From assembly GCA_030248195.1 (NCBI GenBank), contig JASAND010008520.1, forward strand, positions 1 through 64,000: a stretch of DNA of 64,000 bases. Reading direction: 5' to 3'. Made by a program: the position numbers and the translations under genes. The notes below the pieces were generated by a model that saw only the letters and a program-made list of their open reading frames with translations, was not told the DNA's origin and did not search any database. Positions 6,522-62,919 of the stretch are shown here, piece by piece. Position 1 is the stretch's first letter. Every line of letters begins with the position of its first letter. Source of the stretch: Trissonchulus latispiculum (taxonomy: Eukaryota > Nematoda > Enoplea > Enoplida > Ironidae).

Positions 6522-8040
6522 TGTCCCCCCCCTATTAACTCAAGCTAGGCTCAACGCCCGGAGCTGAAATTTGGCAGGTATGTGGGGGTTGGTCCCAAAC
6601 CTGGCCCATTTTAATTTCATCGCTCTAGACCCACCCAGTCGACCAGGGCAGGGAATTGAATTTTTTAAAATCGTAAGGGGGGACCAAGGCGATTCTCAAA
6701 AATGGTCGAAAACTTTTTGTCTCCGATTTTGCTGAAAAGTCAGTCCTAGGGTAATTCGGGGACGCAGATTCCAAATCTGCAATCGAAATTTTTCTAGCTT
6801 TTGTGAATCTCGAGATATTGCCAAAAGTTACACTGTTGGAGACCGCAAAAGTGAGCAAACTGCCCAGAAACGCCTAATATCTGTGTTTTTTGAACTCGTT
6901 AGTCAAGTTTAGCCGGTGGATTTGCTAAGATATCCTTTAAAAAGAAGTGTAAAGTAACTTTCAGTGATATTTAGTAGAAAATTTCTTATCCCAACTGCCC
7001 TTTTATGGGCAACCATTTTCAGGTGAAGGTGACAAAAATGGATAAAAACTTTTAATGTCCGATTTGGTTGAAAAGTCGGTCATAGGGTAATTCGGGAACG
7101 CAGATTCCAAATCTGCAATCGAACTTTTTGTAGCTCCTATGGATCTCGAGATATGGCCAAAAGCTACACTGTTGGAATCCGCAACAGTGAGCAAATTGTT
7201 TAGGAAGCCTGTTTTTTCGAACTCGTTAGTCAAGTTGAGTTGGTGGATTTGGTAGGACACCCTTTAAGAGGGTGTATCAAGTAACGTATAGCGATATTTA
7301 GTGAAAAATTAGTTGCCCCAACTACCCCATTAAGAGCAACCATTTCCAGGGAATGTTGCTTATCCTAACTGCAACTTTAAGGGCAACCATTTCCAGAAAA
7401 ATTCCTTATCCCAAATGCCCCTTTAAGGCCAGCCATTTCCTGGGAATGTTTCTTATCCCAACTGCCCCTTTAAGGGCAACCATTTCCAGGGAATGTTTCT
7501 TATCCCAACTGCCCCTTTAAGGGCAGCCATTTCCAGGGAATGTTGCTTATCCCAACTGCCCCTTTAAGGGCAACCATTTCCAGGAAAACTCTTTATCTCA
7601 ACTGCTATTTCAAGGCCGACCACTTCAAGGAAAACTACTTATCCCAACTGTCCCTTTCAGGGCAACCATTTCGAAAGAATGCTCCTTATCCCAACTGCCC
7701 CTTTAAGGGCAACCATTTTCCGAAAACAGCACGGAAAATGCTTTTTCCCACCGATTTGATTAAAATCGACGCTACAAACGTACCTGCGTAAAGAAAGAAG
7801 CGGCGGCAAACCATTCATGCCAATTTAGCTTGTTTTATTTTTAAAACGCTACATTTACGACAAACAGCACTTACATTGCTACACTAATAGATACCATTAC
7901 AGATACAGGTTTACATTTAAATACAATCTTCAAAGCAATAACAACGATTATGCCTCAATGGCACAATGTCCCTATACAACGTAAGGCCAACAATAAGGCT
8001 AGCCTTACTTACATGCAATTAGTGTAAGTACTTACCCAAG
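6522..8040. repeat. tandem array unit 3
   Basis: It matches unit 2 with a constant 2922-bp offset (for example 4081-4338 with 7003-7260) and ends by running into the left arm of the 2.3-kb palindrome. Confidence 0.8.
7308..7722. repeat. 47-bp minisatellite, cluster 4
   Basis: About nine units, the unit 3 counterpart of 4386-4800. Confidence 0.85.
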
Positions 8041-8170
8041 CACGTAAGTATTTGCTTACCCAAGTACGTAAGTATTTACTTACCTAAGCACGTAAGTATT
8101 AGTCTTATAAGTCTACGCTTACAGAAGAGTCAATTTAAACTCCTACACAAATTGGTAATACGACAAATAC

Positions 8171-8801
8171 CTATGATGAAAGATTTTCAAATTCGCCATC
8201 ATCTTCCACAGGCTCGTAGCTAATTGTGAGAACGTATTCATCTATACTTCTGTTCTTCTCAACAGCGATTTTATACGCATCTAATGGTTCCATACCTTTA
8301 TCATCCACTAGTTCGTTCTTTTTATCAATTATTTCCTTTATAATGGGATCATTACCGAAAGCAATGAGCTCAGCAAATTTATTCAGCACCAGGCCGTTAA
8401 TAGTTCTTCTGATGCGTGGGATAAGGTCATCAAAAGCTTCTCTTTCTGCTTCTTTGTTTGAGTAACCACCTTCTTCGTATCCGAGTTAAGCGCGACCTGT
8501 GTTTTGCTAAGGCTTGTTCTTTCAAATCTTGCCAGAAATGTGACAATTTCTCTCTGCTAGCACTGCTATCATTGGTGTCAGTGCTGTCCTCAGTTTCATA
8601 ATCTTCTCCGTCATTTTCTGAAGTATTGTGTGCCCTCAGCTTGTGAGTGTACAAGCTTTGACGATGGCGGTATACTTTTGAGCATTCTGAACACTCATAC
8701 ATAGTGAAGGAGAATTTACGGTAAGATGAGTTCACTATAACAGCACCCCTTTTATTAATTTCTTTCCATCTACTTACGGTAAGCCTTACAACATACTGCA
8801 T
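8171..8801 (-). pseudogene. C2H2 zinc-finger protein, frameshifted left-arm copy
   Basis: This is the mirror copy of the intact gene at 9393-10034. Reading starts at 8801 with the same N-terminus and zinc finger. An 11-nt deletion near 8485 then shifts the frame after the SRLTRI residues. The rest of the protein continues in another frame (8389-8171) down to the shared C-terminus. One early residue also differs (SRW is preceded by V here and by I in the intact copy). The finger itself is undamaged, so a truncated protein of about 123 aa could still be made. Confidence 0.7.
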
Positions 8802-9392
8802 CAGTACTTACGCATCCCTGACGTAAGTGACTTCGGTAAATCTTGTAAGTGGTTTACAAATACTTACGTAAATAAACCTGTTTGTTGGTGCTTTTGAGCA
8901 AAACTCATTTAGTAAACTAACAGACCGAGGTTCGCCACATAGGCAGACCGTTTCGCTGCGGCGCGCACTAACTAAGGTCGAATCGCGGTTCATAACGTAT
9001 CCCAACAGCCCTCTTAAGGGCAACCCAAATTTAATCTATCGCAATGTATTCGCTTACAAGATTGGTTAGAGTAAGTCAGCATCGAATAAATGTTTACCCA
9101 GTGGTAACCATTGGTGTATTTGTAATTTAAAGGCTTTATGCGGAACTTCAAGTATAGATTAAAATTTGGGTAGCCCTTAAGAGGGCTGTTGGGATACGTT
9201 GTGGACCGGGATTCCAGCTTAGTTAGTGCGCGCCGCAGCGAAACGGTCTGCCTATGTGGAGAACCTCGATCTGTTAGTTTACTAAATGAGTTTTGCTAAA
9301 AAGCACCAACAAACAGGTTTATTTACGTAAGTATTTGTAAACCACTTACAAGATTTGCCGAAGTCACTTACGTCAGGGATGCGTAAGTACTG

Positions 9393-10034
9393 ATGCAGTA
9401 TGTTGTAAGGCTTACCATAAGTAGATGGAAAGAAATTAATAAAAGGGGTGCTGTTATAGTGAACTCATCTTACCGTAAATTCTCCTTCACCATGTACGAG
9501 TGTTCAGAATGCTCAAAAGTATACCGCCATCGTCAAAGCTTGTACACTCACAAGCTGAGGGCACACAATACTTCAGAAAATGACGGAGAAGATTATGAAA
9601 CTGAGGACAGCACTGACACCAATGATAGCAGTGCTAGCAGAGAGAAATTGTCACATTTCTGGCAAGATTTGAAAGAACAAGCCTTAGCAAAACACAGGTC
9701 GCGCTTAACTAGGATATCAAAGGAATACGAAGAAGGTGGTTACTCAAACAAAGAAGCAGAAAGAGAAGCTTTTGATGCCCTTATCCCACGTATCAGAAGT
9801 ACTATTAACGGCCTGGTGCTGAATAAATTTGCTGAGCTCATTGCTTTCGGTAATGATCCCATTATAAAGGAAATAATTGATAAAAAGAACGAACTAGTGG
9901 ATGATAAGGGTATGGAACCATTAGATGCGTATAAAATCGCTGTTGAGAAGAACAGAAGTATAGATGAATACGTTCTCACAAATAGCGACGAGCCTGTGGA
10001 AGATGATGGCGAATTTGAAAATCTTTCATCATAG
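9393..10034 (+). CDS. C2H2 zinc-finger protein of palindromic element (213 aa)
   Basis: A single intact reading frame lies in the right arm of the palindrome. Residues about 36-59 form one C2H2 finger, C-X2-C-X12-H-X4-H, followed by a Ser/Asp/Glu-rich linker. A charged helical C-terminal domain with a DPIIKEI...A..IA..K pattern follows, and the tail is acidic. An alternative start with a better context (ACC ATG) is at 9492, directly before the finger. From memory, similar finger-plus-helical proteins occur in many copies in invertebrate genomes, but I cannot assign a family or function. Its presence in both arms suggests it belongs to the element. DNA binding is the only role the sequence supports. 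Confidence 0.65.
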   Translation: MQYVVRLTISRWKEINKRGAVIVNSSYRKFSFTMYECSECSKVYRHRQSLYTHKLRAHNTSENDGEDYETEDSTDTNDSSASREKLSHFWQDLKEQALAKHRSRLTRISKEYEEGGYSNKEAEREAFDALIPRIRSTINGLVLNKFAELIAFGNDPIIKEIIDKKNELVDDKGMEPLDAYKIAVEKNRSIDEYVLTNSDEPVEDDGEFENLSS

Positions 10035-10251
10035 GTATTTGTCGTATTACCAATTTGTGTAGGAGTTTAAATTGACTCTTCTGTAAGCGTAGACTTACAA
10101 GACTAATACTTACGTGCTTAGGTAAGTAAATACTTACGTACTTGGGTAAGCAAATACTTACGTGCTTGGGTAAGTACTTACACTAATTGCATGTAAGTAA
10201 GGCTAGCCTTATTGTTGGCCTTACGTTGTATAGGGACATTGTGCCATTGAG

Positions 10252-11294: not shown

Positions 11295-26938
<15,644 letters not shown>

Positions 26939-47397: not shown

Positions 47398-48038
47398 GAT
47401 GGTTAAGTAGAGACACGACAACACAAGATATATATACGTACTATTTTCACGTACAAACAACATAAACGTCGTTATGACATAAACATGTAATGTATATGCT
47501 GAGATTAAAGGGATGGGTAATGTTCAATCAATCTATGGAAGTATAGAAAGAAGGAACGGTTCTATATTACGACCGAAGTTGTCAAACTGCACCAAAGAGT
47601 ATATACTGGTATATACTCAAATGATATTGATCTATATTACGACATACATCGTCAACTCTTGTATTTAATATACAAAACTGCTTAAATATCAAAGTTTATG
47701 CGTTAAGATTTTAGGTGTGATGTTAAACTTGGGCGACCATTTGGTGCGTATCGCACCAGCCTGTCAGTAGGCAAAAAGCGGCACTGTTTCTTTGAAGTTG
47801 TGCTCAGAAAATGCAGGCTTGACAGACTAACAGAAATGACAGACTAAAGCCTGATTGACAGACTAACAAGTCGCCGCCCCCGCCCTCCCCCTTCACGCAG
47901 ATTTGCTTAGTCCGTAAAGATGCTGTTGTAGGTATATATACATATACATACTATATATATATATACGACATATATACTATATATAGTATATAGCTTCAGT
48001 CTAGTTCACAATTGACAGACTAGGGCAGACTAATTTAC
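47398..48038. other. non-coding, TGACAGACTAA motif cluster
   Basis: TGACAGACTAA or close variants occur at about 47819, 47837, 47857 and 48013. A TA-rich palindromic tract lies at 47935-47990. The outer Gypsy homology begins just after. No LTR could be identified here. Confidence 0.45.
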
Positions 48039-48545
48039 ATGCTGATCATTACGAATCTCACCGAATTACGGAGCTTCCTCGGCCTTGCCTCATATTACAG
48101 AAGAATCATTAAGAATTTCGCTCAGGTCGCTTACCCCCTCTACTCCTTACTAAAGAAAGAGCATCAATACCAATGGACTGAAGACTGCAACCACAGTTTC
48201 TCTACATTACAAGAATGTCTCATCACATCACCTATCCTTGCGTTCCCCGACCCAAACCGCCCATACACCTTACAAACGGATGCCAGCGTGTTCGGTCTAG
48301 GAGCGGTACTGTCCCAACTCAATGCTCAAAACAAAGAGCATCCAGTGGCATATGCCAGTCGTACTCTCTCAAAGGCTGAAAAAACTATCCTGTCATAGAA
48401 CTTGAAGCATTGGCTATAGTATTTGGCGTCAAATACTTCCGCCATCTCATTTACGGGCAACAGGTCACCATTCTAAACCACTCTAAGCCTAAACCCTCTC
48501 CGATGGCTTATGACAGTAAAATCCTCCTAACAACATGACTTCGTA
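48039..48545 (+). pseudogene. outer Ty3/Gypsy element: RNase H region
   Basis: The frame 48039-48398 starts at ELRSFLGLASYYRR, the classic boundary after the Gypsy RT, and continues through YPLYSLLKKE, LQTDASVFGLGAVLSQ and YASRTLSKAEK. A frameshift at about 48397 moves the ELEALAIVFGVKYFRHL block to another frame. The usual TDHSPLKWL motif is corrupted to LNHSKPKPS. Everything upstream (gag, protease, RT) is missing from this copy. Confidence 0.85.
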
Positions 48546-48549
48546 ACAT

Positions 48550-49636
48550 ATGCTCCAACAGCCAAATATCAAGCATTTCCTGGACTACCTTGAAACCGGC
48601 TCTCTACCGGAAGATCTTACAGTAGCAACTCACACTGCAATCAAGGCCGCTCGTTACTTCGTAGAGGACGGGCTCCTGTATCATGAATATCCACATGCCA
48701 ACAAACCCGGCAAACTATTTGTTCAGCTAGTCATTCCGCAAGTAGACACATCTGAAGTGTTTAAATCCTGTCATGAAGATATTACAGCAGGATATTTGGG
48801 ATTCGAGAAGACCTACCTCAAAATTCTAAGCCGCTACTGGTGGGATACTATAAGAAAAGATGTCAAAGAATGGTGCAAAATCTGCGAAGCCTGTATTTGC
48901 GAAAAGAGTCCCCCAAAAGCTGTAAGAGCACCTCTAGTATCTATCCCAGTTGAACCTGGGACCGAGTCGCAGTTGATATCCTTGGTCCGCTACCTCAAAC
49001 GGAAGAGGGATACAGATATATTATAGTCTTTACGGAATACCTCCCCAAATCGGTTGAAGTCTTTCCCCTAACAGACACTAAGGCCCAAACAGTTGCTAGA
49101 GTCTTTGTCGAGGAAATTGTCTGCCGTTATTCTTGCCCCAAGGAACTGCTTTCGGACCGTGGAGCCAATTTTCTCAGTACACTTATGATGGAAACGTGTA
49201 ACCTACTAAGAGTTACGAAGCTCAACACTACAGCTTATCATCCACAGGCAGATGGCCAATGTGAACGTTTCAACGCAACACTCATGCAAATGATCAGCAA
49301 ATATGTATCCCACACACACACAAAAAGATTGGTCCAGTTTCATTAACTTTTGCCTCTTCGCATACCGCACATCGGTACACTCGTCTACCCTGGACACACC
49401 TTCTTTCTCAACTTTGGTCGCGAAGCCAGGCTACCTCTCGATGCCGTACTACGGGAAACCCGGGGAATCTACTGCGAAATTGAGTACTACCGAACTGATC
49501 TTGTTCAAAATACAGGAGGCTTGGACTCTAGCTAAGAAACATATCGAGCTTGCTCAAACAAAGCAAAAGCACTACTACGACCGCAGGTCAACTAATACGG
49601 AATTCTCGGAAAATCAGCTAGTTATGCTGTATTTAC
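48550..49636 (+). pseudogene. outer Ty3/Gypsy element: integrase
   Basis: It carries the zinc-binding region (SCHEDITAGYLGF...CKICEAC) and then the catalytic core in a second frame (FTEYLPKSVEVFPL, LLSDRGANF, ADGQCERFNA), so D, D and E positions are visible but split by frameshifts near 48960, 49310 and 49380. It breaks off at QLVMLY, where the inner element is inserted, and resumes at 60802. Confidence 0.88.
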
Positions 49637-50178
49637 TGTCGTAGCTAGGTGTTGTCTTGTCTTGGTGTGTCATGTCTGTAATGCTGATAAACGTGCTGAA
49701 GTCTCGCATTAATTATTCATATAATAATGTCTGGCTGTCAGCATGTAGCTAACAGTATGTAGCTGTCTGGTAAACTATTCCTAAATTGTTTCAATTATAG
49801 GTTTCCTACCTCGTAAATTGCCTATTAGTGTTATTATGTCTCTGTCTGCTTATCAATGTTTGCATGAATATTTAATGGGCCTATGCTATATAAGGAGTAA
49901 CCTTGTTTGTCAGTGGAGTTCAGTTCTGTCTGTACTCTGTACGTGAGTGTCGTCAGTAAATCACTGAAGTTAGAATTGAATTCAGGTGGTTAGGGTGATT
50001 CCGTCTACTAGACACTAGACGAGGACGTTTATTCCTACGAACGCTATCAGTTCGTAGAAGGGACATACAGTCCAGACACATACGAGCGTACGGCTCTACG
50101 CATACCCCCTACGCACTGTAGGAGAATAATTAATAATTACTACTGTACCAGTAGAACAAATCAACGATACCAGCAGCA
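49637..50178 (+). repeat. 5' LTR of inner Ty3/Gypsy element (542 bp)
   Basis: It begins TGTCGTAGC and ends CAGCAGCA. It is nearly identical to 60271-60801, with a handful of substitutions and three small indels, including one of about 10 bp. It contains a TATA box TATATAA (49887-49893). The outer flank TTTAC and the flank beyond the 3' LTR TACAG share only TAC, so a clean target duplication is not seen. Confidence 0.92.
49887..49893 (+). promoter_or_regulatory. LTR TATA box
   Basis: TATATAA followed by GGAGTAACC. It is conserved at 60514-60520 in the 3' LTR. Confidence 0.65.
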
Positions 50179-50211
50179 TGTGAAACTATTCAGTTGTGCC
50201 CAAGTTGAACA

Positions 50212-51521
50212 GTGGACTCGGGAGAACAGAACAGAGGTTTTGACCAAAAAACGACACAGGCTATCAAATTTGAGCGAGTGTCGAAAAATTTAGGTGAAGT
50301 CCCTAAGACGGAAACCTCTGGTCAGTCCGTAGCCTCTACAGGTAGCGGCAGAAAGGAAACACGTTCAACACAGACAGGCTCCTGTGACCAAGCCTCCGTA
50401 CGAAGTTTACAATCCTTGAAGCACACTAGTAAAAATATTTCTGAGACAGCTCAGCGTTGGATTGACGAGGCCAAAGGAAGACAAGACGAGTGGGCGAAAC
50501 AAGTACAGATATTGGTCAAAACGGAACCTACTGACTCCGACATTTTCGACTTTTTTGGATTTTCTCAAGCTGAGGTAGACAGTACCGCTGATCTAATAGC
50601 AAGTCTATATCCAAATCTAACACATTTGGATCCGACAATGGCATTGCCTGACTTTTCGGGCCTGCAGTCTGCCTTACAGAGTTTACCCGCACATTTCAAA
50701 CAGGCCGTGCAAGGAATGCACGGAGTAACCAGTCTACTAGGGCTGAGGTACTCAGGTCAAGCACAAGAAAGCTGGCGCGACTTTATAGATTCCTTTGAAA
50801 TCATCAGCACTGCCAATGACTGGACACCAGACGAAAAGGCACGCACGCTGCCGGTCTGCCTACAAGGGCAAGCTAGAGACATCTATGCTGCCATGGATGC
50901 CACCACAAAAACAGACTTTGGTGCTTTGATAAAAGCCTTAAAAGAATCACTTGAGCCGGCTGAAATGGCCAGATTCAAGAGTGCACAGCTGCATAAACGT
51001 ACTCAACACTTACAAGAACGTGTAGCAGATTTTGCTGCCAGCATTAAAAAGCTTGTCAAAGGTGCATATCCTAACTTCGACCAGAGTCATCAGGATACGC
51101 TAATGATGGAATTTTTCATCGCTGGACTTTTGCCGCACTACGGCAGGCTAGTAATGTCAAAAAACCGTCCAGCTTTGAGGAGGCCCTCAAGTATGCAAAG
51201 CTAGTCGAAGCAGGAGAATATCTCACAGCCGGTACTCCCGTCGCTACCGACAAGGCTCAAACGTTCTACACAAGCATAAACACGGAACTTAGTGAACTCA
51301 AAAATGCCTTGACATCCTTGCAGGAACAGTTCCAGAAATTTTCGTTTGACCAACAAAGGCAGAACGGATATATGCAAGGAGTTTTGGCCCACACTAACAA
51401 TCAAAATACGGCCCAACCAGTTGGAAGAACGGATCAACGTTCACAAGGGCGGCAATGGACCACAGATAATCGAGTTATCTGAAACTATTGTAGGAAACCC
51501 GAACACTATGTGATAAATTGT
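50212..51521 (+). pseudogene. gag: inner Gypsy gag (capsid plus zinc knuckle)
   Basis: The frame 50212-51204 has no early ATG and could start at a non-ATG codon or upstream. The capsid domain shows LGLRYSGQAQESWRDFI, PVCLQGQARDIY and TLMMEFFIAGL, typical of Gypsy retrotransposon gag. A frameshift in the A run near 51160 moves the frame. The zinc knuckle, C-X2-C-X4-H-X4-C, is at 51480-51521, but its first cysteine codon is TGA. The downstream basic/Asn-rich region stays open into the env-like part. Confidence 0.85.
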
Positions 51522-53798
51522 CGAAAGCGCCAGAGGGACCGGGGAGCCGATAACGGTCCTATAACAAGACCAAAACCTGCCCAAAACTATGCCCCGCGCG
51601 GGACGACCAATCGCAGCGGTAATACGAGTTATAACAGCGGTTACAATAACCGTACCAATACAGCCTATGCAGTTGTCAGTGATGAAACTCATGTTCCAAC
51701 CGCTGTTCCTGATTCGCCGCCGGAAATAACCGAGCTAAAAGAAACAATTAGAATTATCTCGGAACAGAATGACCAGTTGATTCAGCAACAATACCGTAAT
51801 TTTGTGGGTAGCATCACCGTGGTGTCCGATCATACACCTAATACAGATAACCGAAAGGAACATAACTTGGAGAAACAAACAAATACAAAGCGAAAGGCGC
51901 CTATGCAGACTACGAAAACTGCACACAAATCAAAACAACCCGAAGTATCAGATACACCCGTTCGTATTAACTTGAAGCTGTGGGTTCTGATGATACTGAC
52001 CGCCTGTTGTTTCATGCCCATAGAGTCTGTGAAGAGTGCTGCGGAATTGTCAAGTGGCCCCATGATTTGCCAAACAGAACAAGGTCGAGCTCTGTGGCAG
52101 CTACCTGGACGATTGTATTGTAATCCTGGCGTGCCGTCTGCTAAATCACGAATTCACCAAACCCAACTTACTCTATAAACGAAATTATGTAAAGTACAAA
52201 TCAAAAGCTTGGAAATGTGTCATAGTGAAGCAAACAGTAAAAACGTTCACCTATTTCTTTGCAAATTATCACCTAAAAGAAGAGGAGAAGCATGACATTC
52301 GCGTAACTGGAGCCGAATGTGAAGCTATGCGCCGTTTCCATCAATGCGACGCAGGTCCACTTGTCCAAAAAGGTGGACTTTGGCAGACTGACAACAAAGT
52401 CGACTTCGAATGGTCAGGAGGTGGAATTAACTGTTGTCGATGGCACAGCTACACTGCAACCAATTGCTTCATGTACGAAGCATACGTGTACAAACGCCAC
52501 AGCAGCGAAACAATGGAATCTACTGCTGGCTGGGTTGAACACTGCGACTACCGAACCGGAGGATGTCAGCTACGTGACGGAAGCTACCTGCTGTGGGAAC
52601 CTGACAGCAATGAGAAATGCGAATTCCTAGAATGGTAAACTCTAAGTGGAGAAATGTGGGACACAAATTGGCTAGCAGACAGCGACCTTTTAGCCTTAAC
52701 CTTCCGCAACGGAAAATACGCCAGCGACTGTGAAGGGAATAATGTATTCCTGAATCCCAGTTCGTATTATGCGAAACGAATCCCGAACTCGTAGAGACAC
52801 AACACTGACTAATCAGACAAATTTTCAAGACTATATTCAGAAAGCTGAGTCTATCTCCAGCCGTGACCTGAAAGCATGGGCTGCTGAGCACGGCCTCGTT
52901 ACAACTGACGTTCTGGCTGCATCCTTACAGTCTCAAGAATTCACAAACATGCGAAACTTGAACTTTGCCTTTAAACAAGCCATGAACGCTGCTTGCCGGT
53001 CTATGGCAACTATAATGGAAGTACTGAAAGCAGATATGCTAGCAAACCCTACGCTGGCACTGCGTGCCATCCTTGGGCGAAATGACATCGTTGCTAGAGC
53101 TGGAGGGCACGTTATATCAACTTGGCCTTGTCAGGAACTGGAGCACGGACTATATCACTTCGATCCAATGAATCAGTCATGTAGCATGGAGATGCCTATT
53201 AAATTCCTACTGAACTCACAAGAATATACAGCATACATGGACCCCATAACTAACATTGTTCACAAGAAACCCTACCCAGTAGATTGTCGTCTCAATAGGG
53301 AAATTCCCGTCCAAGTCCATGGAAAAATGTACATGTACCAGAGTGAATCTGGGGATCTAGCCCCGTTACAACACATTCCAGAAATAAGGGCATTTTCATG
53401 GAACTCTAGTGAGCCCTGGAGCTTCCAACCTACGATTTTTAGCCAAATTGTGATGTATAATTTCTCCGAAATAACTTCGGAAATAGGCCTAAATGAAATC
53501 ATTGGCGGGCTACAACATCAACAACGAATTATGAGTGCCTTAAGCGACAGGACCTCTGGCCATACACCCCCAGCAAACGGCACAAGGTGTGGTTAACGGA
53601 ATCATGCAAAAAGGGTTCTTCGGATTCCTACACGGATTCGCAGTTAGCCCATGGCAATTATGGGGTTTTCTAGTGTGCACTTATGTATCCCTCAGTTTTC
53701 TTATTTTACACTGCTGCCCTATAAACATTCGCCGGAATATGCTATACCCCAGCATTGGCCAAACCTCCGTCGATGGGCAAGAAAAAGAAGAAAACTAA
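51522..53798 (+). pseudogene. env: env-like glycoprotein, broken, between gag and pol
   Basis: The frame 51510-52178 runs from the gag zinc knuckle through a polar linker to a hydrophobic signal-like segment (51971-52020). A Cys-containing region with the pattern ALWQLP...C follows. A frameshift near 52170 leads to a Cys-rich ectodomain (52225-52638) with INCCRWH, TGGC and DGSYLLWEP motifs. A stop at 52636, another shift near 52780, and a frame 52769-53596 follow. A further shift at about 53590 precedes a membrane segment at about 53659-53720 and a basic tail. The order signal, Cys-rich ectodomain, membrane anchor indicates an envelope glycoprotein. From memory the Cys/Trp pattern resembles glycoproteins of chu-like or rhabdo-like mononegaviruses captured by LTR elements. 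No product can be made from this copy without several repairs. Confidence 0.65.
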
Positions 53799-54170
53799 CT
53801 ACAAGGGCGGTTGCTCTGCGAATACAACGAAAACGACGCCGCAGTCCTAATGGAAGCTCTAATGACGACGGCGAAATGCAGGAACCCGTGAGATCGTCTA
53901 TGCATATTGCAGCACCAACTGCGCCCTCGTTCTACGCCGCCTACCCAAACTCCCATTCTACTTGCGGAAGAAGTACAAGCGGACCACGAAGTGACAAATC
54001 CAGACTATCCGATTAACCAACACCAATTATTTTCCCAAGATATCCCGTATAACGAAAGACATACTCAGGTTACACCATCGTTACCTACATCAACGGGAGA
54101 AGCACAGCTCTCAACTGAAGGTCCGACTCCGCGGCTGAGCCGAACCTTATACCCTTAAACTGTATCCCAG

Positions 54171-54758
54171 GTGTCAACACTGAATAAAACTTTCGTCCCA
54201 ACTGTACCAGTGTTTGTGAATGGACGACCAATGAAAGCTCTCCTAGATACGGGATCCACGATTACTCTGATTGATAAGTCTACTTATAATCACATAAATA
54301 AGGGTGTAACCACAACGGCAGTGAAACCCCATGCCATTTCAGCGACTAGCATGACCGGTTATCCGTTAAATCTCGCTGGGCAGACAGAACTAAAGATTAA
54401 ATCGGCACCAGGCAAATTACTCATAATGCTTATATCGTGTATGATGCACCACATGACTGCATTATGGGGTGGATGTGCTACGCAAGCTTGGACCGTTCAC
54501 CGTAGATTTGGAAAAATCAGTTTTCCTAGAAAGTGGGATACCCCGGAAAAATTGCCAACTAGGCACGTAACTGTGGACGAAGACATAGTAATCCTACCAC
54601 GTACACAAGTTACGTTCGCCTGTAAAACTTCCGAAAACACAGTTGGTGGAATATTTGAGCCAAACAAACGAGTGGAACATGCCACCGGTCTATATATAAC
54701 AAGAAGTCTGGTCGATAAAGGCAGTGAAATACCCACTCGAGTACTTATGCTAGTATAG
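54171..54758 (+). pseudogene. pol: inner Gypsy aspartic protease region
   Basis: VFVNGRPMKALLDTGSTITLI gives the retropepsin active-site motif DTGS at 54246-54257. The rest of the frame follows the usual linker towards RT. The following frame, starting about 54794, is separated by stops, so protease and polymerase are no longer continuous. Confidence 0.8.
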
Positions 54759-54793
54759 CTCCTATAAAGCTTTACAAAAACACCAGAATCGGA

Positions 54794-55620
54794 GTGGTAT
54801 ACACTGCTTACCATACCACTGTGCCAACTGCCAAAGATGGTAGTAACGAATGCAATCCCCTAACTGAAATCAACCTAGACAGCAGCAGCTTGACATCCAC
54901 ACAGAAAAATAAACTCTTATCTATCCTAAGGCAATTTATCGATGTATTCGCCAAGAATGACAATGATATTGGATGCGCTACAGCAGTGAAACACACTATC
55001 GATACTGGAGATCACCTACCCATTTATCAACGCCCCTATCGAACCCCCGTATCCATGCGTGATACCGTTCGCCAAAATTCGTTCATTAGAAACTTTGAAA
55101 GAATAGCTCATCCGCTTTATAGCTTGCTAAAGAAGGAGTCTTCCTTTAGTTGGACTCAGCACTGCGATAATAGCTTCACAGTTTTGAAGGACTGTCTGAC
55201 CTCAGCACCAATGCTAGCATTCCCGAATATTAACAAGGCATTTCTGTTGCAAACAGATGCCAGTATAAAAGGACTGGGAGCGGTACTGTCACAACTGGAT
55301 GACACTAACAAAGAACATCCAATCGCTTACGGCAGCAGAACGTTAACGAAGGCTGAAAAAATTACCCTGTTATAGAACTAGAAACACTGGCTATTGTTTT
55401 TGGTTTGCAACATTATCGACACCTTATTTACGGGCAAAAGATAGTAGTACTTACCGACCATAGCCCTCTTAAATGGCTCATGACTGTAAAATCTCCTAGT
55501 GGTCAACTCATGCGATGGATTTTGCAGCTACAGGAATACAATTTGGAAATACAATACAAACCAGGGAAGAAACACTCAAACGATGACGCACTGTCACGGC
55601 TGCCCAATATAGAACCTACC
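54794..55620 (+). pseudogene. pol: inner Gypsy RT remnant joined to RNase H
   Basis: The frame contains the N-terminal RT lead-in (DVFAKNDNDIG...HTIDTGDHLPIYQRPYRTP). It then passes directly, near 55058-55080, to the post-RT block RNFERIAHPLYSLLKKE. The palm and fingers with the YxDD catalytic site are absent. RNase H follows with LLQTDASIKGLGAVLSQL and, after a frameshift at about 55370, LETLAIVFGLQHYRH, LTDHSPLKWL and NDDALSRLP. The RNase H acidic residues are present but split by the frameshift. Confidence 0.88.
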
Positions 55621-55699
55621 CAACCACAGTCAAACAACTCAAATAATACAGATCACCTCGAAGACCGTGTGCTAGTCATCACAGTTACTGACAAAATTT

Positions 55700-57116
55700 C
55701 CCTTCGTAGAGCTCAAATGTTTCAGCGACTTACAGCAACTAATACAGTACCTCAAACAAGGTATCATACCGGACGACCCAACAGAAGCTATTAATCTAGG
55801 ATCACGTAGCTATCGCTACTACCTAGAAGAAGGAATACTATATCATGAATATGTTCGTGCCGGTTCGCATGCTGTGCGTCTATACCAGCAGGTTGTTATA
55901 CCGTCCAGCCTCACTCGCGACGTCTTTAAATCCTGCCATGAGGAATGCACAGCATCGCACTTGGGGTTCAACCGAACTTACCTTACCATACTCAGCCGAT
56001 ACTGGTGGGACACCATGCGCCAAGATATTAAAAAGTGGTGCAAACAATGCGATGGATGTCGAAGAAAGAAAAGTCCACCTAAAGCTGTCAAAGCTCCACT
56101 AATACCCATTCCCGTTGAAGGACCCTGGGACCGTGTAGCAGTAGACATTATTGGACCTCTTCCACAAACAGAAGACGGTTACAAATATGTTTTAGTCTTC
56201 GTAGAATATCTTACTAAATGGGTCGAAGCCTTTCCCTTAAGTGATACTACTTCGGATACCATCGCCAAAGTATTTGTAGAGCAAATTGTATGCAGGTTTT
56301 CTTGTCCTAAGAAGCTACTATCCGACCGAGGGTCTAATTTCCTTAGTGATCTCATGCTGTCTGTTTGTAGCTTATTGGGTGTACATAAGATAAACACCAC
56401 AGCCTATCACCCGCAAACTGACGGGTTATGTGAAAGGTTTAACGGAACCTTAATGAACACGCTTAGCTTTTACGTTTCCAAAACACAGAAAGATTGGTCT
56501 ACGTTCCTGAACTTCGCTTTATTTGCATACCGCACCTCAGTGCATTCCTCCACCCATGACTCTCCAATCTATTTAAATTTTGGTAGAGAACCAAGATTAC
56601 CTATAGATACCTTACTTCGCCCAAAACACGCAATGTATACAGAAATCGAAGATTACCGCTACGATCTTACAACAAATATATCATTGGCATGGGAAGCAGC
56701 CAAATCTGAAATTTCTGTAGCACAGACTCGGTATAAACGCGATTATGATCGAAAAGCTACCGAAGTGGACTACTGCCAAAACCAACTTGTCATGCTCCAT
56801 GTCCTTCAAGTCGGGAAAGGAAAAACAAAGAAACTGTCTCTCCCTTGGCAAGGACCCTACCGTATTACTAAAATTAGTTGAAATAAGTGAATGTGGTAAC
56901 CCTCAGAAAGCAGCACAAAAAGTGCACGTGAATAGACTGAAACCAGTCACTGAAGCGACTGCAATTCTGCCGACAAGTGAACCAGATCAAGAAAAAACCA
57001 GCGATACCAAAGGCAATACTCTTTCGTCCTCACATAATGCTGTATACAATAAAAGTGAAACCAAAACCCACCAGTACAACCTACGCTTGCGCAAGAAAGC
57101 GGAAACTGCACCATAA
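55700..57116 (+). pseudogene. pol: inner Gypsy integrase
   Basis: The zinc-binding domain (SCHEECTASHLGF...CKQCDGC) is followed by the catalytic core, with D in AVDIIGPLP, D in LLSDRGSNF and E in DGLCERFNG. Then come YRTSVHSSTHDSP and a C-terminal PWQGPYRI motif (GPY/F type). The main frame 55874-56881 is intact. Its N-terminus (55790) and its C-terminal tail (56882-57116) lie in other frames because of small indels. It is the best preserved part of the element. Confidence 0.9.
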
Positions 57117-57802
57117 CCTTCTACTGTATTAAATCCAACTATATCTATCAAATCCCTGACTATGTATAAATATATAACTACACCTGTATATACGACCACC
57201 TTTGTGTTACTATACCGGTTACTGCAATTGTGTTCGATCCCACGCTAACATACATGTACTCGTATAGGAATTTGACATTATTTCGAACATAATCATCTTG
57301 GTCAACCTCGTTCAAATACCCAGTATCACAAAATCAAACTAACTATCAACCCAACGTTCATATTTAATTATTTCATTTTGGACTCTGATAACCGCAAACA
57401 GCAGAACTAATCCAAATATAATCCGACTAGCATATGAAGGTGAACAAAATAAGAATAAATTATGCTGATGAAAGGTAGTCTTTTGTGCTGACCGCTAATA
57501 TCTTCTTTCGGAAAGGAAACTACCAAATATTACATTCCGAAGATTACCACCTGCTCCCATCACGTAGTGGGATTCAGAAATTAACTTTTACCCTCATCCT
57601 GCTAAACACTAATCCTTTTTGGAAATTCCCAAATATGAAATCCATAAAGACAGATGACCACCTGCTCTCATCACACTTCGGGATAATGTTCACTTGAACA
57701 TTAGGCCTTTCGGTTCTTAAGGTTCACCCAACCGCTGAAGTCTGGCCCGGAAGATAATTTAAAATTTATGACTCAGATAAATTAATTGCTGACATGATAA
57801 CC
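57117..57802. other. spacer between integrase and accessory region
   Basis: AT-rich, non-coding in appearance, with a local repeat of GATTACCACCTGCTCCCATCA and GATGACCACCTGCTCTCATCA type (about 57540 and 57652). Confidence 0.55.
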
Positions 57803-57810
57803 TATAAAAG
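57803..57810 (+). promoter_or_regulatory. internal TATA box of accessory region (inner element)
   Basis: TATAAAAG followed by GC-rich sequence lies 174 bp upstream of the accessory start codon at 57977. The outer element has TATAAATA 178 bp upstream of its own accessory start. Confidence 0.5.
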
Positions 57811-57976
57811 GCTTACGGATTGCAGCCATAGTCACTTTGATATTTTCTTCCAACGAGAAGCTGGAGTTGAATCGTATGCTGAGTTCACAGGCACTTATAG
57901 TGCTCCTATAACCGCTGTATATACTGAACTTATTGAACCACTATTGTATCCTACTCATCCCTGAACGACAAGCAAC

Positions 57977-60012
57977 ATGTCAGACAGCGACAACGACACC
58001 AGTGACGTAAGTTATCCACTGTTAAATTTAAATTATTTAACTACATTAGATACTAGTACAGCCATGCGATTTCTTGCAGCTCATTACCATGTCAAACACT
58101 TCATGGAAGGTGAACTACTCAGAACCCAGTGACATATGGGTGAAATGTTTTAGTAGAGAGCAAAAACTACGCCCTACTCTTCCCCTAACTTGCTATGGCT
58201 CTATACGCGAGCCCAGCCCACAGTAACGTTACTGCAAGACTTAGGATTCCTTGATTGTCTCAGTGAATCCTTAGCTAACTCCTTTACCCCCGACGAGTTG
58301 GTTTATACAACCACTGGCTTCTTCAGCGAAATGCTGCAAGTCTCTTTCTGTCCTAATATGCACCTAAGCGCGCCACCACTATTCAGCTTACCAGACACGA
58401 CATTTGCGGAAGCCTTTAATGAATTAACTCGCTGGGCTATGAAATACTATGCCGAACCAAAAATGTGGGAAGTCGAAGCCAGAGAAGGCTCAAAACGAAA
58501 TCGCATTGCAGGACGCAACTTGAAACTGGTTGCTCTAACTATCCTAAATTCGCGTAGAATAGGTCTGGATGTCACTTTTTCGGACCACTTTATAGCGGCC
58601 CATCAAGCTCTAACCAAAGGCAACATCCCATTACTGCCACAACCTCATTCTCAAACTTTGTATGACATTTTCCACGATTCGATTCAAGAATACAGTTTCC
58701 TTAGATTTTCAACCTGTCACATTGACAGTCCTCAGTATTTACCTACTCCCAAGGACTGATACGGTCCTATTCCCATTCCCAAACCTGTACTAACGTTATC
58801 TGTACATAAACATTGCAAATAAATAAGACTTACAACGCACCTATATACAACGTCGAAAGCACATCAGTCAATAATCATATCAATCATAATGATCAGGGCA
58901 ATAACAGAACGCCCATCAACACTAGATATATACAATTACAGGAACAAATCTCAGGCATACTGCACATTTAAAAAGAACGAGTGCAGCGAAGCCACTGCCA
59001 GGTTCTATATACCGCTAAGACCACTACTGCATTTTTCTCAGTAATCAACTTATGCAGCCCGTGCACAAATCCCAGGTTCTCTAAACAATCCCACATATCC
59101 ATACTTATATACATCTGTATATACATACTATGGTGGACTTTTCCTCACCCCCCCCCCCCCCCCCGGCTCAAATCGCAGTCGTCATATAACCTTGCGAACG
59201 TAACACTCCCGTTTATGACTACTGCACTACGCCTACGCACCCTATATATGTACTTATACTGTTATCTGTACCTATTTCAGGGTAACTCCAGCAGTGGGTC
59301 AGATCGAGAGAGCGAAACTATAGAAATCGACCGCTGCCAAATAAAGGACCTCTTTGGTAGTGATTCTGACTCAGATGCGCCAACTTCACCTAACCCTAAA
59401 CAACAGGCCAGGGATCCTTCCAACGGAGAGGAGGAAGAACTCATCGCACCTGCTCAAAACTCAGAGCCACTACAAATCCCTTCTACTTCCCCTAAATCAG
59501 CGAAAATCCAGCGAATTGGGAGCGAAAGTGTTCCTCCACCTACAGCGGCAGTTCGCTCCAAGCATAAACAAGGCAAAGGCGCAAAAGGAAAGGAGCCAGC
59601 GACATCACCTCCACTAGTTGTGCCTCGCATAGAGGAATTTCATGACGGATATGTTACTTCATGGGCCACCGAACCCGTAAATATAGCGCCAATGCCTGGC
59701 CCGTCCTCTTCTAAACGTCGCTGCCAGAGCAAAGTGGTCAAACCAGCAGTCAGATGCTCACCTCCACGACCACCAGTTCAAAACTTGATGCCACAGCATC
59801 AGGAACAGCCCTCTCACATCAAGGCTACAACTTTGATGTTCTGGGAAGCGGCTTGTTCGGGCTATACCGAACCTGATGGCCAAATCTATCAGGTAACCCT
59901 TCCTCGTGATCAGGAAGAATTTTTAAGCCCAAACCAAACCCAGGCCATGTTCCGCTTATTCCAGCGGCAAAGGCTCAGCGTCGCAAAACTAGACGCCATG
60001 AAAATCTGTTAA
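57977..60012 (+). CDS. accessory protein B, predicted two-exon gene (253 aa)
   Basis: Predicted exon 1 (57977-58006) encodes an acidic decapeptide and ends at a consensus donor GTAAGT. Predicted exon 2 starts after CTATTTCAG at 59281, in phase 0, and ends at TAA 60012. The protein is Ser/Asp/Glu-rich at first, with DLFGSDSDSD, then Pro/Lys-rich and intrinsically disordered. A short ordered-looking C-terminal domain follows (FWEAACSGYTEPDGQIYQVTL, MFRLFQRQR). DLFGSDSD recalls the start of the Paf1-complex subunit Leo1, but low complexity makes this weak. It lies between integrase and the 3' LTR on the sense strand. No function can be assigned. Confidence 0.55.
58089..58759 (+). pseudogene. accessory ORF A, inner element (one frameshift)
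   Basis: An ATG at 58089 opens a frame (MSNTSWKVNYSEPSD...) that stops near 58224. The protein continues in another frame, 58190-58759. The combined product would be about 220 aa. It aligns along its length with the ORF at 62209-62919 of the outer element: DIW.....E..L.P.LPL..YG, then SP/TPDELVY, then a late SFLRFSTCHIDSP block. It lies inside the predicted intron of accessory protein B. No known family is recognised. Confidence 0.6.
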
Positions 60013-60270
60013 ACCAAGCTGCAAAATTGATCCTCTTTGGTCTCGACAACCCCAATGGTGGAAAAACGAAAATCTTATCTGGGGTCAAATTGCTGGGATC
60101 TCTGGTGTATGATATCAGACGAACCGAAGGAGCCGGAGCTGATCCGGACAACAGTCGTTCCGTCCCACCATTGCTAGGCTGTCGAAGGAAACGTCCCTAC
60201 CGATAAGCAATAATACAAACTAACTACGTCATCGAAAAAGAGGACTTTTTCTTTCCCTGGTCGGAAGTAA

Positions 60271-60801
60271 TGTCGTAGCTAGGTGTTGTCTTGTCTTGGT
60301 GTGTCATGTCTGTAATGCTGATAAACGTGCTGAAGTCTCGCATTAATTATTCATATAATAATGTCTGGCTGTCTAATAACAGTATGTAGCTGTCTGGTAA
60401 ACTATTCCTAAATTGTTTCAATTATAGGTTTCCTACCTCGTAAATTGCCTATTAGTGTTATTATGTCTCTGTTAGCTTACCAATGTTTGCATGAATATTT
60501 AATGGGCCTATGCTATATAAGGAGTAACCTTGTTTGTCAGTGGAGTCCAGTTCTGTCTGTACTCTGTACGTGAGTGTCGTCAGTAAATCACTGAAGTTAG
60601 AACTGAATTCAGGTGGTTAGGGTGATTCCGTCTACTAGACACTAGACGAGGACGTTTATTCCTACGAACGCTATCAGTTCGTAGAAGGGACATACAGTCC
60701 AGACACATACGAGCGTACGGCTCTACGCATACCCCCTACGCATTGTAGGAGATTAATAATTACTACTGTACCAGTAGAACAAATCAACGATACCAGCAGC
60801 A
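60271..60801 (+). repeat. 3' LTR of inner Ty3/Gypsy element (531 bp)
   Basis: TGTCGTAGC...CAGCAGCA, matching the 5' LTR. TATA box at 60514-60520. It is preceded by GAAAAAGAGGA, a weak polypurine tract about 30 bp upstream. Confidence 0.92.
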
Positions 60802-61260
60802 TACAGTTGCTCTGTGACATTACCAGCCCTAACCAAATGGAAAACCGTGAAGCTAAATAGACCATGGCACGGTCCTTTCCGCATAATCAAACTTTCGCCA
60901 CCAACAGCCGAGATACAGGAGTGTGGTCAACCGAACAAATCGTTTCAGAAAGTTCACGTCAATTGTCTAAAGCCCATCACTACCAGTTATTACGTGCCCC
61001 TTCGAACTCCGACCCTACCGAATGCCGCCGACGGGCCCTTTATTCTGGCAAAGGAACTGCTCCGTTAAGAACAGTTCTTTCCCCAGGTCAACTGTACGAC
61101 ATCTCGAGCAAGTGGACTGTTCGTAGATCAGTATGACGAACCCGGCCAAGCCGGCGCCTCCCGAACTACCGTTTCATTGCTCCGACGCCATACAGCGGAG
61201 GACTATCAAGATCCCCTCTTCCTCGTCAAGGCCCTCAATTCCGGGTTCAGAACGTTGTAA
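60802..61260 (+). pseudogene. outer Ty3/Gypsy element: integrase C-terminus, resumed
   Basis: Directly after the inner 3' LTR the integrase tail resumes with KWKTVKLNRPWHGPFRIIKL (the GPF motif), IQECG and FQKVHVNCLKPI, matching the inner element's tail. A second frame then gives LFVDQYDEPGQAG to about 61257. This proves that 49637-60801 was inserted into this gene. Confidence 0.88.
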
Positions 61261-61935
61261 ACAAAGGCGAAACTCTATTTCAGGAAAACAGTTTAAAAAC
61301 ATAGCCAATCGAATTCGTAATGAAACACAAACCCTACCATATCAATACCATATCCCTATCATCTAGTAGTCCATCTCCAACAAAGGTATATCCTCACCGA
61401 TTTGCTCTCAATCACTGCTTATTCTTATATTAACACTATCCTTAATATTTTATACTCACTTCTATTTATACTCATATTAATACGTATATACTCATTCCCA
61501 TATGCTATCTATCTTGACTTCTAGTTGAACATTGTGCTTATCGCGAATTTATACCTTGTTTTTATTACCTCTTTCTCCTCCTGCATATTGCAGCCTATAT
61601 ATCTATACGATCTACCTACATACATGCGTATACGTCTGTGTATATAGACTTCCCTTTCTGCTACTATTCGACTTCCCGTAATCAGCACATACATTAAACA
61701 GCGCATTAATTACAACGTATAACTGTCAAAAGTTGATACTAAGGAGTCCTAGCAAATGCCACCCACCTACTAACATAAGGGTTCAAAATTTAGAATGAAA
61801 TCGTAACCTTCAATCCACCAGCACAATTCCACTTGTGATAAAACTAATATTTAAAGATGTCTTACGCACCTACTTAACACAATACAACAAACTGACCTTA
61901 AACGAGTTTACGTTCTACAATCCGTACACAAGCAC
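61261..61935. other. spacer between integrase and accessory region (outer element)
   Basis: AT-rich and without convincing coding, the positional equivalent of 57117-57802. Confidence 0.5.
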
Positions 61936-61943
61936 TATAAATA
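61936..61943 (+). promoter_or_regulatory. internal TATA box of accessory region (outer element)
   Basis: TATAAATA in CACTATAAATACCCCC, 178 bp upstream of the ATG at 62114. Spacing matches the inner element. Confidence 0.5.
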
Positions 61944-62113
61944 CCCCCACTTCTTAAAACCAATCAGTTGCACGTTTCAAAGCATCTAGAACTGCTGCAA
62001 CTATAGTTGCAACTACAAACAGCTATCCTTCATGATCCCTGAACAGTATCTCTACTAATCTTCATTTCCACTATTTCTTCATTATTTACTTATCCTCATT
62101 CCCAACTATCTTC

Positions 62114-62137
62114 ATGGCTTCTACGTGGTCAGATTCG
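62114..62137 (+). CDS. predicted short first exon of accessory gene (outer element)
   Basis: ATG plus seven codons (MASTWSDS) end at GTAAGA. This parallels the ten-codon first exon and GTAAGT donor of the inner element at 57977-58006. The matching second exon was not found in the remaining sequence. Confidence 0.4.
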
Positions 62138-62208
62138 GTAAGAAGTTTTTACTCTGATTCCGTTCAAAGTTATCTAAAAACGCGGTCAGTCACAGATCTC
62201 TCGATTAC

Positions 62209-62919
62209 ATGAATAGCTTCATCACTGCAGTGGCAACCAAATGGAAACTCGATCTTGAGAATAATTTGGATATTTTTATCCCAGAGTTTCTTGCTGAAAA
62301 GAATCTCTACCCTTGCCTCCCTCTTTCCACTTTTGGCGTTGTTCGCGGGCTCACAGTAAATTCTATTATTAGCCTAAAAAAGTTACAAAAGCGAGGAGAT
62401 GCCTACGCTAAACAGCTCTCGCCTGACAAGTTAGTTTTCCTTCCGCCGAACTACCACCAACTCATGTTCCGAGCACACTGTCGTTCGAACTTGACGCCAG
62501 CCATGGCTAAATTATTCGAAATTCAGAAACCTGAAGAATTCGGCGAAAAGTTTGACTTTATCACGGGATGGCGCATGGAGGGTTCAGTTTCATGAAAAAC
62601 CCCAGTTGTAGGAAATTAAACAACTGTGGGGTTAGGTTATGTAAGCGTTGCAGCTCGTTCTGTCCACCTTGCGGCACACACTGCTCTTGGGGCTCGATTC
62701 GCTGATTGTGCACTATCTGAAAATTTAATATCTAAGTGCAAATTTCTGATCAACAGCAAATTGGCTTTCCCAAACCATTTCAACCAGCTGTTCGAGCCAT
62801 CTCTCAAAGACAACAGCTTTACACGAATCACTATGGCATACATTGATCCTATACCATACGACGAAAGTAGTATATGGTCAGCATTTCATACCCCACTCTC
62901 GGGAGGGAATGACCTTTGA
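62209..62919 (+). pseudogene. accessory ORF A, outer element (broken near 62595)
   Basis: The frame 62209-62595 encodes about 128 aa, with DIFIPEFLAEKNLYPCLPLSTFG and SPDKLVFLPPNYHQLM. After stops and a shift it continues at about 62626-62919 with HTALGARFADC...SKCKFLI and NSFTRITMAYIDPIPYDES. The same blocks in the same order occur in the inner element at 58089-58759, with diverged residues. That both Gypsy elements keep this ORF in the same place suggests it once mattered to the elements. Function unknown. Confidence 0.6.

Follow-up and report, generated by a model that had tools for sequence, protein, structure and literature searches.

Two conserved genes between integrase and the 3′ LTR

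The window analysed here is a stretch of 64,000 nucleotides (nt) from the nematode Trissonchulus latispiculum (contig JASAND010008520.1, positions 1 to 64,000), the right end of which consists of two nested Ty3/Gypsy-type retrotransposons with long terminal repeats (LTRs), an inner element having inserted within the integrase of an outer one. An earlier note on this DNA had described homologous open reading frames (ORFs) after the integrase of both elements, assignable to no family, and had read their retention in two diverged elements as a sign that the ORF served the elements. We confirmed the homologous ORF, which we call ORF A, at both reported places, and found downstream of it a second gene, ORF B, which had been missed when a single accessory gene was seen. 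The coordinates of the features are collected in Table 1.

The homology between the two ORFs was detected with separate pieces; frame lesions interrupt both window copies of ORF A. The inner piece 58157-58756 matched the outer piece 62158-62592 in BLASTP (E = 3e-5), and the inner piece 58089-58208 matched the outer ORF within the window in tblastn (E = 3e-6), so that the ORFs of the two elements align significantly. The 3′ piece of the outer ORF (62620-62916) did not match the inner ORF when the two were compared directly and is tied to the family through the relatives L014 (E = 1e-9) and L024 (E = 6e-12). A search of the genome (734 Mb in 21,732 contigs) showed that ORF A is also present in other family members, with at least 72 matches to the inner piece and at least 77 to the outer piece, both being lower bounds, many of them inside frames that stay open for 250-320 codons. 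We fetched 40 ORF A loci for analysis (L009-L048), which include open relatives of the broken window copies. Counted from the first ATG, the open ORF A proteins have 252-275 amino acids (aa). Thus, whereas the reported homology stood, the reported size of about 220 aa and the start at 58089 did not, the relatives pointing to an ATG at 57977. We also considered an intron immediately upstream of the inner ORF A and dropped it, as the relatives are open through that stretch. The family falls into two types, the inner (start M..SD-VSYPLL) and the outer (start M..DP-VS.F), and an alignment of 25 sequences contains 13 invariant columns.

Substitutions in the open copies demonstrated that ORF A is under purifying selection. 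The ratio of non-synonymous to synonymous divergence (dN/dS, omega), for which a value near 1 would speak against function, was 0.06-0.42 in all eight pairs with dS < 1.2 among the 30 open copies. In seven independent pairs it was 0.15-0.42, and when these were pooled we counted 78/4199 non-synonymous against 95/1201 synonymous changes (rounded counts, p = 2e-25). An integrase of the same lineage was located upstream of ORF A in 13 of the 20 first-fetched loci, which cover 6-10 kb each and some of which lack integrase where contig ends cut them, and in 5/5 further loci. Distances between ORF A copies followed those between the integrases (Mantel r = 0.81, reached by 0/5000 permutations; 14 loci, one integrase piece per copy), with ORF A diverging about twice as much as integrase. 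Linkage to integrase, matching divergence and purifying selection together support the suggestion that the ORF served the elements.

ORF B has 288-347 open codons in the fuller copies. An inner-type ORF B query matched 17/20 of the first-fetched loci, and among nine outer-type downstream loci eight gave ORF B at E < 1e-21, while the ninth, which is partly N, shows the ORF B N-terminus. The latter part of L053 holds a long N stretch within and past ORF B. The protein has an acidic N-terminus, a proline-rich middle and a basic, helical C-terminus; in 12 proteins the isoelectric point was 4.0-4.6 for the first 80 aa and 9.7-11.5 for the last 140 aa, with a proline content of 12-21%. The 19-residue hydropathy reached 1.64 in one of the 12 (L014, within an alanine-valine-proline repeat) and was at most 1.15 in the other 11. 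Conserved blocks in an alignment of 11 relatives read LFGSDSDSNAP.SP, GY.ASW, FWEAACHGYTEP and RRHE..LHQAAKLILFGLD...GSLV.D.RR. For ORF B omega was 0.13 and 0.30 in two pairs.

Splice-site sequences and a candidate internal promoter

Shortly after its start ORF A carries a sequence of the splice-donor type. The motif GTAAGN was found in 31/35 ORF A copies (GTAAGT in 23), always in phase 0 and encoding Val-Ser or Val-Arg, 6-19 codons past the ORF A start; the count covers 35 of the 40 loci, five having been dropped because their frame did not reach the start. The valine codon at this position is GTA in 28/30 near-complete ORFs, compared with 24% of valine codons elsewhere, a bias for which a formal probability would be unsafe among copies related to each other. 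At 30 other conserved columns the share of the top codon exceeded 60% in none. Because of this difference, coding does not explain the conservation of the donor. Beyond nt 70 the sequence GTAAG occurred eight times across the 35 ORFs, which total 26,538 nt.

ORF B is preceded by a pyrimidine-rich sequence of the acceptor type, and in 17/21 B loci a phase-0 acceptor-like site was among the two best candidates, a rule that favours finding one. The B frame opens right after the TAG of the acceptor itself in 9/18 B loci (L016, L023, L050-L052, L054-L057), and in L052, L054 and L057 there is no methionine ahead of the first conserved ORF B block. For these two reasons ORF B appears to need splicing from the first exon of A. 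The predicted intron measured 918-1564 nt in 11 relatives.

A TATA motif ahead of ORF A was also observed in many copies. Within the interval 90-230 nt before ORF A (-230..-90) it was present in 18/30 copies, compared with a mean of 3.3 and a maximum of 8 in 200 shuffles, and we propose it as an internal promoter. The start coordinate 57803 that the earlier note gave for the cassette coincides exactly with the TATA box of the inner element. Upstream of that box, 57541-57563 and 57652-57674 form a 23-bp direct repeat (91% identical), which is possibly a regulatory site.

Wider element, known systems and proposed function

The same elements encode a putative class III fusion glycoprotein of mononegavirus type, the region of which lies between gag and protease. 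Gag and glycoprotein share one open frame in L058 (reverse strand), L059 and L060 (analysed piecewise), and in L059 and L060 protease and reverse transcriptase (RT) continue in that frame. The best matches of the glycoprotein were Monjiviricetes_fusion (4.5e-4 in L059, 6.2e-4 in L060, 1.5e-3 in the window) and BDV_G, below the curated cut-offs and the same in each. Searching the genome with the glycoprotein piece of the window, we obtained 139 matches listed of 654 candidates (138 scored). Since the open frame around 54/139 extends over 2000 codons or more (over at least 2500 for 40/139, these being frame lengths), a gag-glycoprotein-pol polyprotein is suggested as a general feature. A glycoprotein lies 5.4-9.4 kb upstream on the same strand in 35/78 ORF A places, and none within 10 kb is otherwise arranged; fragment rows were left out and 79/139 glycoprotein rows used, and one of the 35 is the outer copy of the window, credited with the glycoprotein of the nested inner element. 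In the open literature on Ty3/Gypsy elements, covered mostly as titles and abstract openings, we found no description of such a cassette or of an envelope between gag and pol.

One distant relative has a glycoprotein that is 49% identical and is read in an open frame 2599 codons long. Its stretch L066, some 5.3 kb downstream of the glycoprotein match, carries a protein-kinase ORF at 2-415 (Pkinase, 1.6e-14) and, at 614-2710, a 699-aa ORF with NADAR (4.2e-32) and a weak 3′-5′ exonuclease match (0.0023, below the cut-off). The frame length implies that pol would lie between the glycoprotein and these genes. Because L066 carries kinase and NADAR genes instead of A and B, the slot after pol looks, from this one locus, like a place for exchangeable host-interaction genes.

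The failure of the earlier note to assign the ORF to a family was repeated in Pfam, protein, viral-contig and Protein Data Bank (PDB) searches. ORF A, as a single sequence and as a 25-sequence profile, had no homologue among about 5.8 billion proteins, nor had the ORF B profile (best 7,997 candidates scored). IMG/VR viral contigs gave no confirmed relative and phage records a single match (E = 7). No credible match to A or B was obtained in a PDB sequence search, where a hit to ephrin-B2 (E = 0.19) was judged chance, and the glycoprotein piece gave one PDB match (E = 0.73). Pfam includes a foamy Bel family, and no credible match to it or to any other Pfam family was detected in 25 A and 11 B proteins, so A and B are not recognised as homologues of Tas or Bel2. 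AlphaFold modelled A as a single compact alpha/beta protein (predicted local distance difference test, pLDDT, 84.4; predicted template-modelling score, pTM, 0.80) and the C-terminal domain of B as a helical hairpin with small helices (pLDDT 84.8, pTM 0.71). Comparison of A with BFVD and PDB, and of the B domain with PDB, returned no convincing structural match. Both genes thus lie outside every family searched, and A is modelled confidently with no structural match found.

That the locus holds two conserved genes whose starts are linked by conserved splice-site sequences we regard as very probable. We propose that the two genes, placed after integrase and ahead of the 3′ LTR, would be transcribed as one unit, in which an internal TATA promoter would initiate a transcript common to A and B. 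Unspliced RNA would give ORF A. Removal of an intron that runs from the donor, 6-19 codons into A, as far as an acceptor 0.9-1.6 kb further downstream would yield ORF B beginning with the same residues as A. The two proteins would then be alternative products of a single unit, comparable to Tas and Bet of foamy viruses. The pair would act early, ahead of the structural genes. With its acidic N-terminus and basic helical C-terminus, B would most likely act in the nucleus and regulate the transcription of the element or the export of RNA, while A, a compact acidic protein, could be its partner or an antagonist of host defence. For this reading as a whole, in which the internal promoter and the splicing are both real, the role is regulatory and early, and B works in the nucleus, we estimate a probability of about 0.6.

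The comparisons here and below are with the available portions of the cited papers. Closest to the proposed unit are tas (bel1) and bet of the foamy viruses (Spumaretrovirinae), where two ORFs also lie ahead of the 3′ LTR, an internal promoter is present (here a proposed one), and the second product is spliced and starts with the N-terminus of the first ORF, as we propose here from sequence (PMC8003144, PMC12789967). Foamy Tas activates both promoters (PMC12789967). The present cassette differs in its Ty3/Gypsy lineage, in a glycoprotein that is not in the env position and in a shared exon of only 6-19 codons. By analogy it would work like tas/bet rather than belong to it; we liken it to that system and do not place it there because A and B match no known family. 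Among Ty3/Gypsy elements the nearest functional precedent that we found is CERV of Cer1 from Caenorhabditis elegans, a spliced accessory protein required for genomic RNA export. CERV has 517 aa and five exons, exons 1-3 being read in the gag frame, and the available text mentions no internal promoter (PMC10309623). In the present cassette, by contrast, the proposed shared exon is part of ORF A, where the conserved donor lies, and a TATA box is often found ahead of it. The ORF3 genes of bdelloid rotifer LTR elements are likewise varied third ORFs other than env, one of them an exonuclease, but the available text presents them as single captured enzymes and mentions neither an internal promoter nor two-gene splicing (PMC5408684). 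In the Drosophila MDG1 group, sORF1 and sORF2 are also two accessory proteins of Ty3/Gypsy elements; they are, however, short, sORF2 is transmembrane and in most cases precedes gag, and in the portion available the authors recognise no alternative promoter (PMC11952523). As to the glycoprotein, Anakin is an LTR element with a chuvirus-type glycoprotein but belongs to the superfamily BEL/Pao and not to Ty3/Gypsy (PMC7642597), and a study of arthropod Gypsy elements, in its available part, reports no clear evidence of such a capture (PMC10084718).

Several observations weigh against the proposed Tas/Bet-like unit. Both the splicing and the internal promoter are read from sequence. Four of the 35 ORF A copies have GTAACT, GGAAGT, GTGAGT or GTAGGT in place of GTAAGN, and in 4/21 B loci no phase-0 acceptor was among the two best candidates. 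The TATA motif was present in the tested interval in 15/17 outer-type copies and in only 3/13 inner-type copies, which makes the case for a promoter weaker in the inner type, though the window's own inner copy has TATAAAA. In the inner element the internal promoter and the LTR shared no excess of words (nine-mers, 7 compared with 5.3 in shuffled sequence; ten-mers, 1 compared with 1.3), so this one element did not show the response element, common to both, that a Tas-like activator should have. L024 was placed differently in the integrase and ORF A trees. Neither A nor B showed a functional domain in Pfam among the proteins searched, and in the 3.2 kb read from L066 there was no A or B, the kinase and NADAR ORFs lying where A and B would be expected. 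The conflict over L024 has the pattern that recombination between sublineages would give.

The main rival, which we judge less likely but hold at an appreciable probability, is that A and B do not regulate transcription or export and are instead counter-defence cargo that suppresses an innate defence, whether piRNA/siRNA or another, with the place after pol as the slot for such genes. The kinase and NADAR/weak exonuclease ORFs of L066 agree with this alternative, and A diverges faster than integrase; moreover, APOBEC3 is counteracted by foamy Bet, to which B would correspond (PMC3751544, PMC8003144). On the other hand, L066 is one distant locus in which the pol between glycoprotein and cargo is deduced, Pfam finds no defence-related domain in A or B, and the layout of B fits a nuclear regulator equally.

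We consider it improbable that a mononegavirus-like virus was the source of A and B, which would then be a nucleoprotein (N) and a phosphoprotein (P) acquired along with the glycoprotein. The glycoprotein with weak BDV_G and Monjiviricetes_fusion matches in the same elements agrees with such a capture, as does the order of A and B, in which an acidic and probably disordered protein comes after a globular one, much as P comes after N. Known N proteins are, however, longer than A, and conserved splice sites are unexpected in genes copied from most such RNA viruses, although bornaviruses do splice. The lack of a fold match for A (BFVD, PDB) or the B C-terminal domain (PDB) also counts against capture, an absence that does not exclude an N fold. 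Far less credible still is ORF A as an envelope or small fusogen: it occupies the usual env place, but the maximum 19-residue hydropathy in 30 copies was 1.26, with no hydrophobic segment that could serve as a signal peptide or transmembrane region, and the glycoprotein sits elsewhere in the element. The cassette as a host gene was considered and dropped. Least of all can A and B be decaying passengers or an unrelated unit inserted by chance, a view that the broken state of both window copies invites but that purifying selection, constant place and orientation, and divergence in step with integrase contradict.

A Ty3/Gypsy lineage may have independently evolved the organisation of a complex retrovirus, with a glycoprotein in frame in Gag-Pol, a splice-switched regulatory or counter-defence pair with new folds under an internal promoter, and an exchangeable place after pol; we put this forward tentatively, at slightly less than an even chance. 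With its open copies, a Ty3/Gypsy lineage that has a Tas/Bet-like arrangement offers a test of whether such control arose more than once.

Layout of the window

The assignment to Ty3/Gypsy is based on the order of the pol domains and on Pfam matches: LTRs are present, and the order protease-RT-RNase H-integrase was seen in relatives. Troyka was considered and dropped, since in the available text that element has no envelope and has CG..CG termini (PMC12440569), compared with a TG start here. The inner element may be flanked by a 3-bp target duplication, TAC, judged by eye. The outer element is truncated on the left, near 48024, and its Integrase_p58_C match (E = 0.022) was below the cut-off. 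The RT catalytic domain (RVT_1) was not found by Pfam in either window copy. The relative L059 carries a strong RT domain (RVT_1, 1.6e-38) that the inner element lacks (54728-55375), which reads as an internally deleted copy.

Table 1. Positions of the cassette and of the other parts of the two nested elements (window coordinates unless stated)
Feature	Position	Strand	Evidence or remark
ORF A, inner element, broken	57977..58759	+	Frame lesions between ~58083 and 58210; open relatives L009, L010, L014, L016 and others
ORF A, outer element, broken	62114..62919	+	Pieces 62158-62592 and 62620-62916; open relatives such as L031, L034
ORF B, inner element, broken	59281..60203	+	Pieces 59281-60009, 59910-60203; alignment with 11 relatives
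ORF B, outer element, broken	66655-67500 of the contig, beyond the window		Outer element
Proposed shared first exon of A and B, inner element (MSDSDNDTSD)	57977..58006	+	Donor GTAAGT at 58007, phase 0
Proposed intron, inner element, 1274 nt, holding nearly all of ORF A	58007..59280	+	Donor GTAAGT, acceptor TTTCAG, both phase 0
Proposed shared first exon, outer element (MASTWSDS)	62114..62137	+	Donor GTAAGA at 62138
TATA box, proposed internal promoter, inner element (TATAAAA)	57803..57809	+	Sequence
TATA box ahead of ORF A, outer element (TATAAATA)	61936..61943	+	Sequence; same box in most outer-type relatives
5′ LTR, inner element	49634..50179	+	96.5% identity to 3′ LTR, 546 columns, 8 mismatches, 3 gaps
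3′ LTR, inner element	60268..60802	+	Pairs with 5′ LTR 49634..50179
gag, inner element, broken	50209..51482	+	Retrotrans_gag E = 5e-4, below cut-off
Putative class III fusion-glycoprotein region, inner element, broken	51960..53798	+	BDV_G 2.7e-4, Monjiviricetes_fusion 1.5e-3, both below curated cut-offs
Protease, RNase H and integrase, inner element, frame-broken	54159..57116	+	Asp_protease_2 2e-5, RT_RNaseH_2 2.5e-23, Integrase_H2C2 1.3e-20, rve 1e-10
RNase H and integrase, outer element, 5′-truncated	48024..49633, resuming at 60803 to ~61068	+	RT_RNaseH_2 6.7e-26, Integrase_H2C2 5.3e-18

Two further observations were made elsewhere in the window. At 7954-10251, long inverted repeats (arms of 527-555 nt, 97-99% complementary) flank an ORF present as two near-identical copies, a unit that is perhaps a DNA transposon or a duplicated gene. 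At 12745-13092 and 20627-21220 there are long TG/CA dinucleotide arrays, in which several frames are open on both strands.

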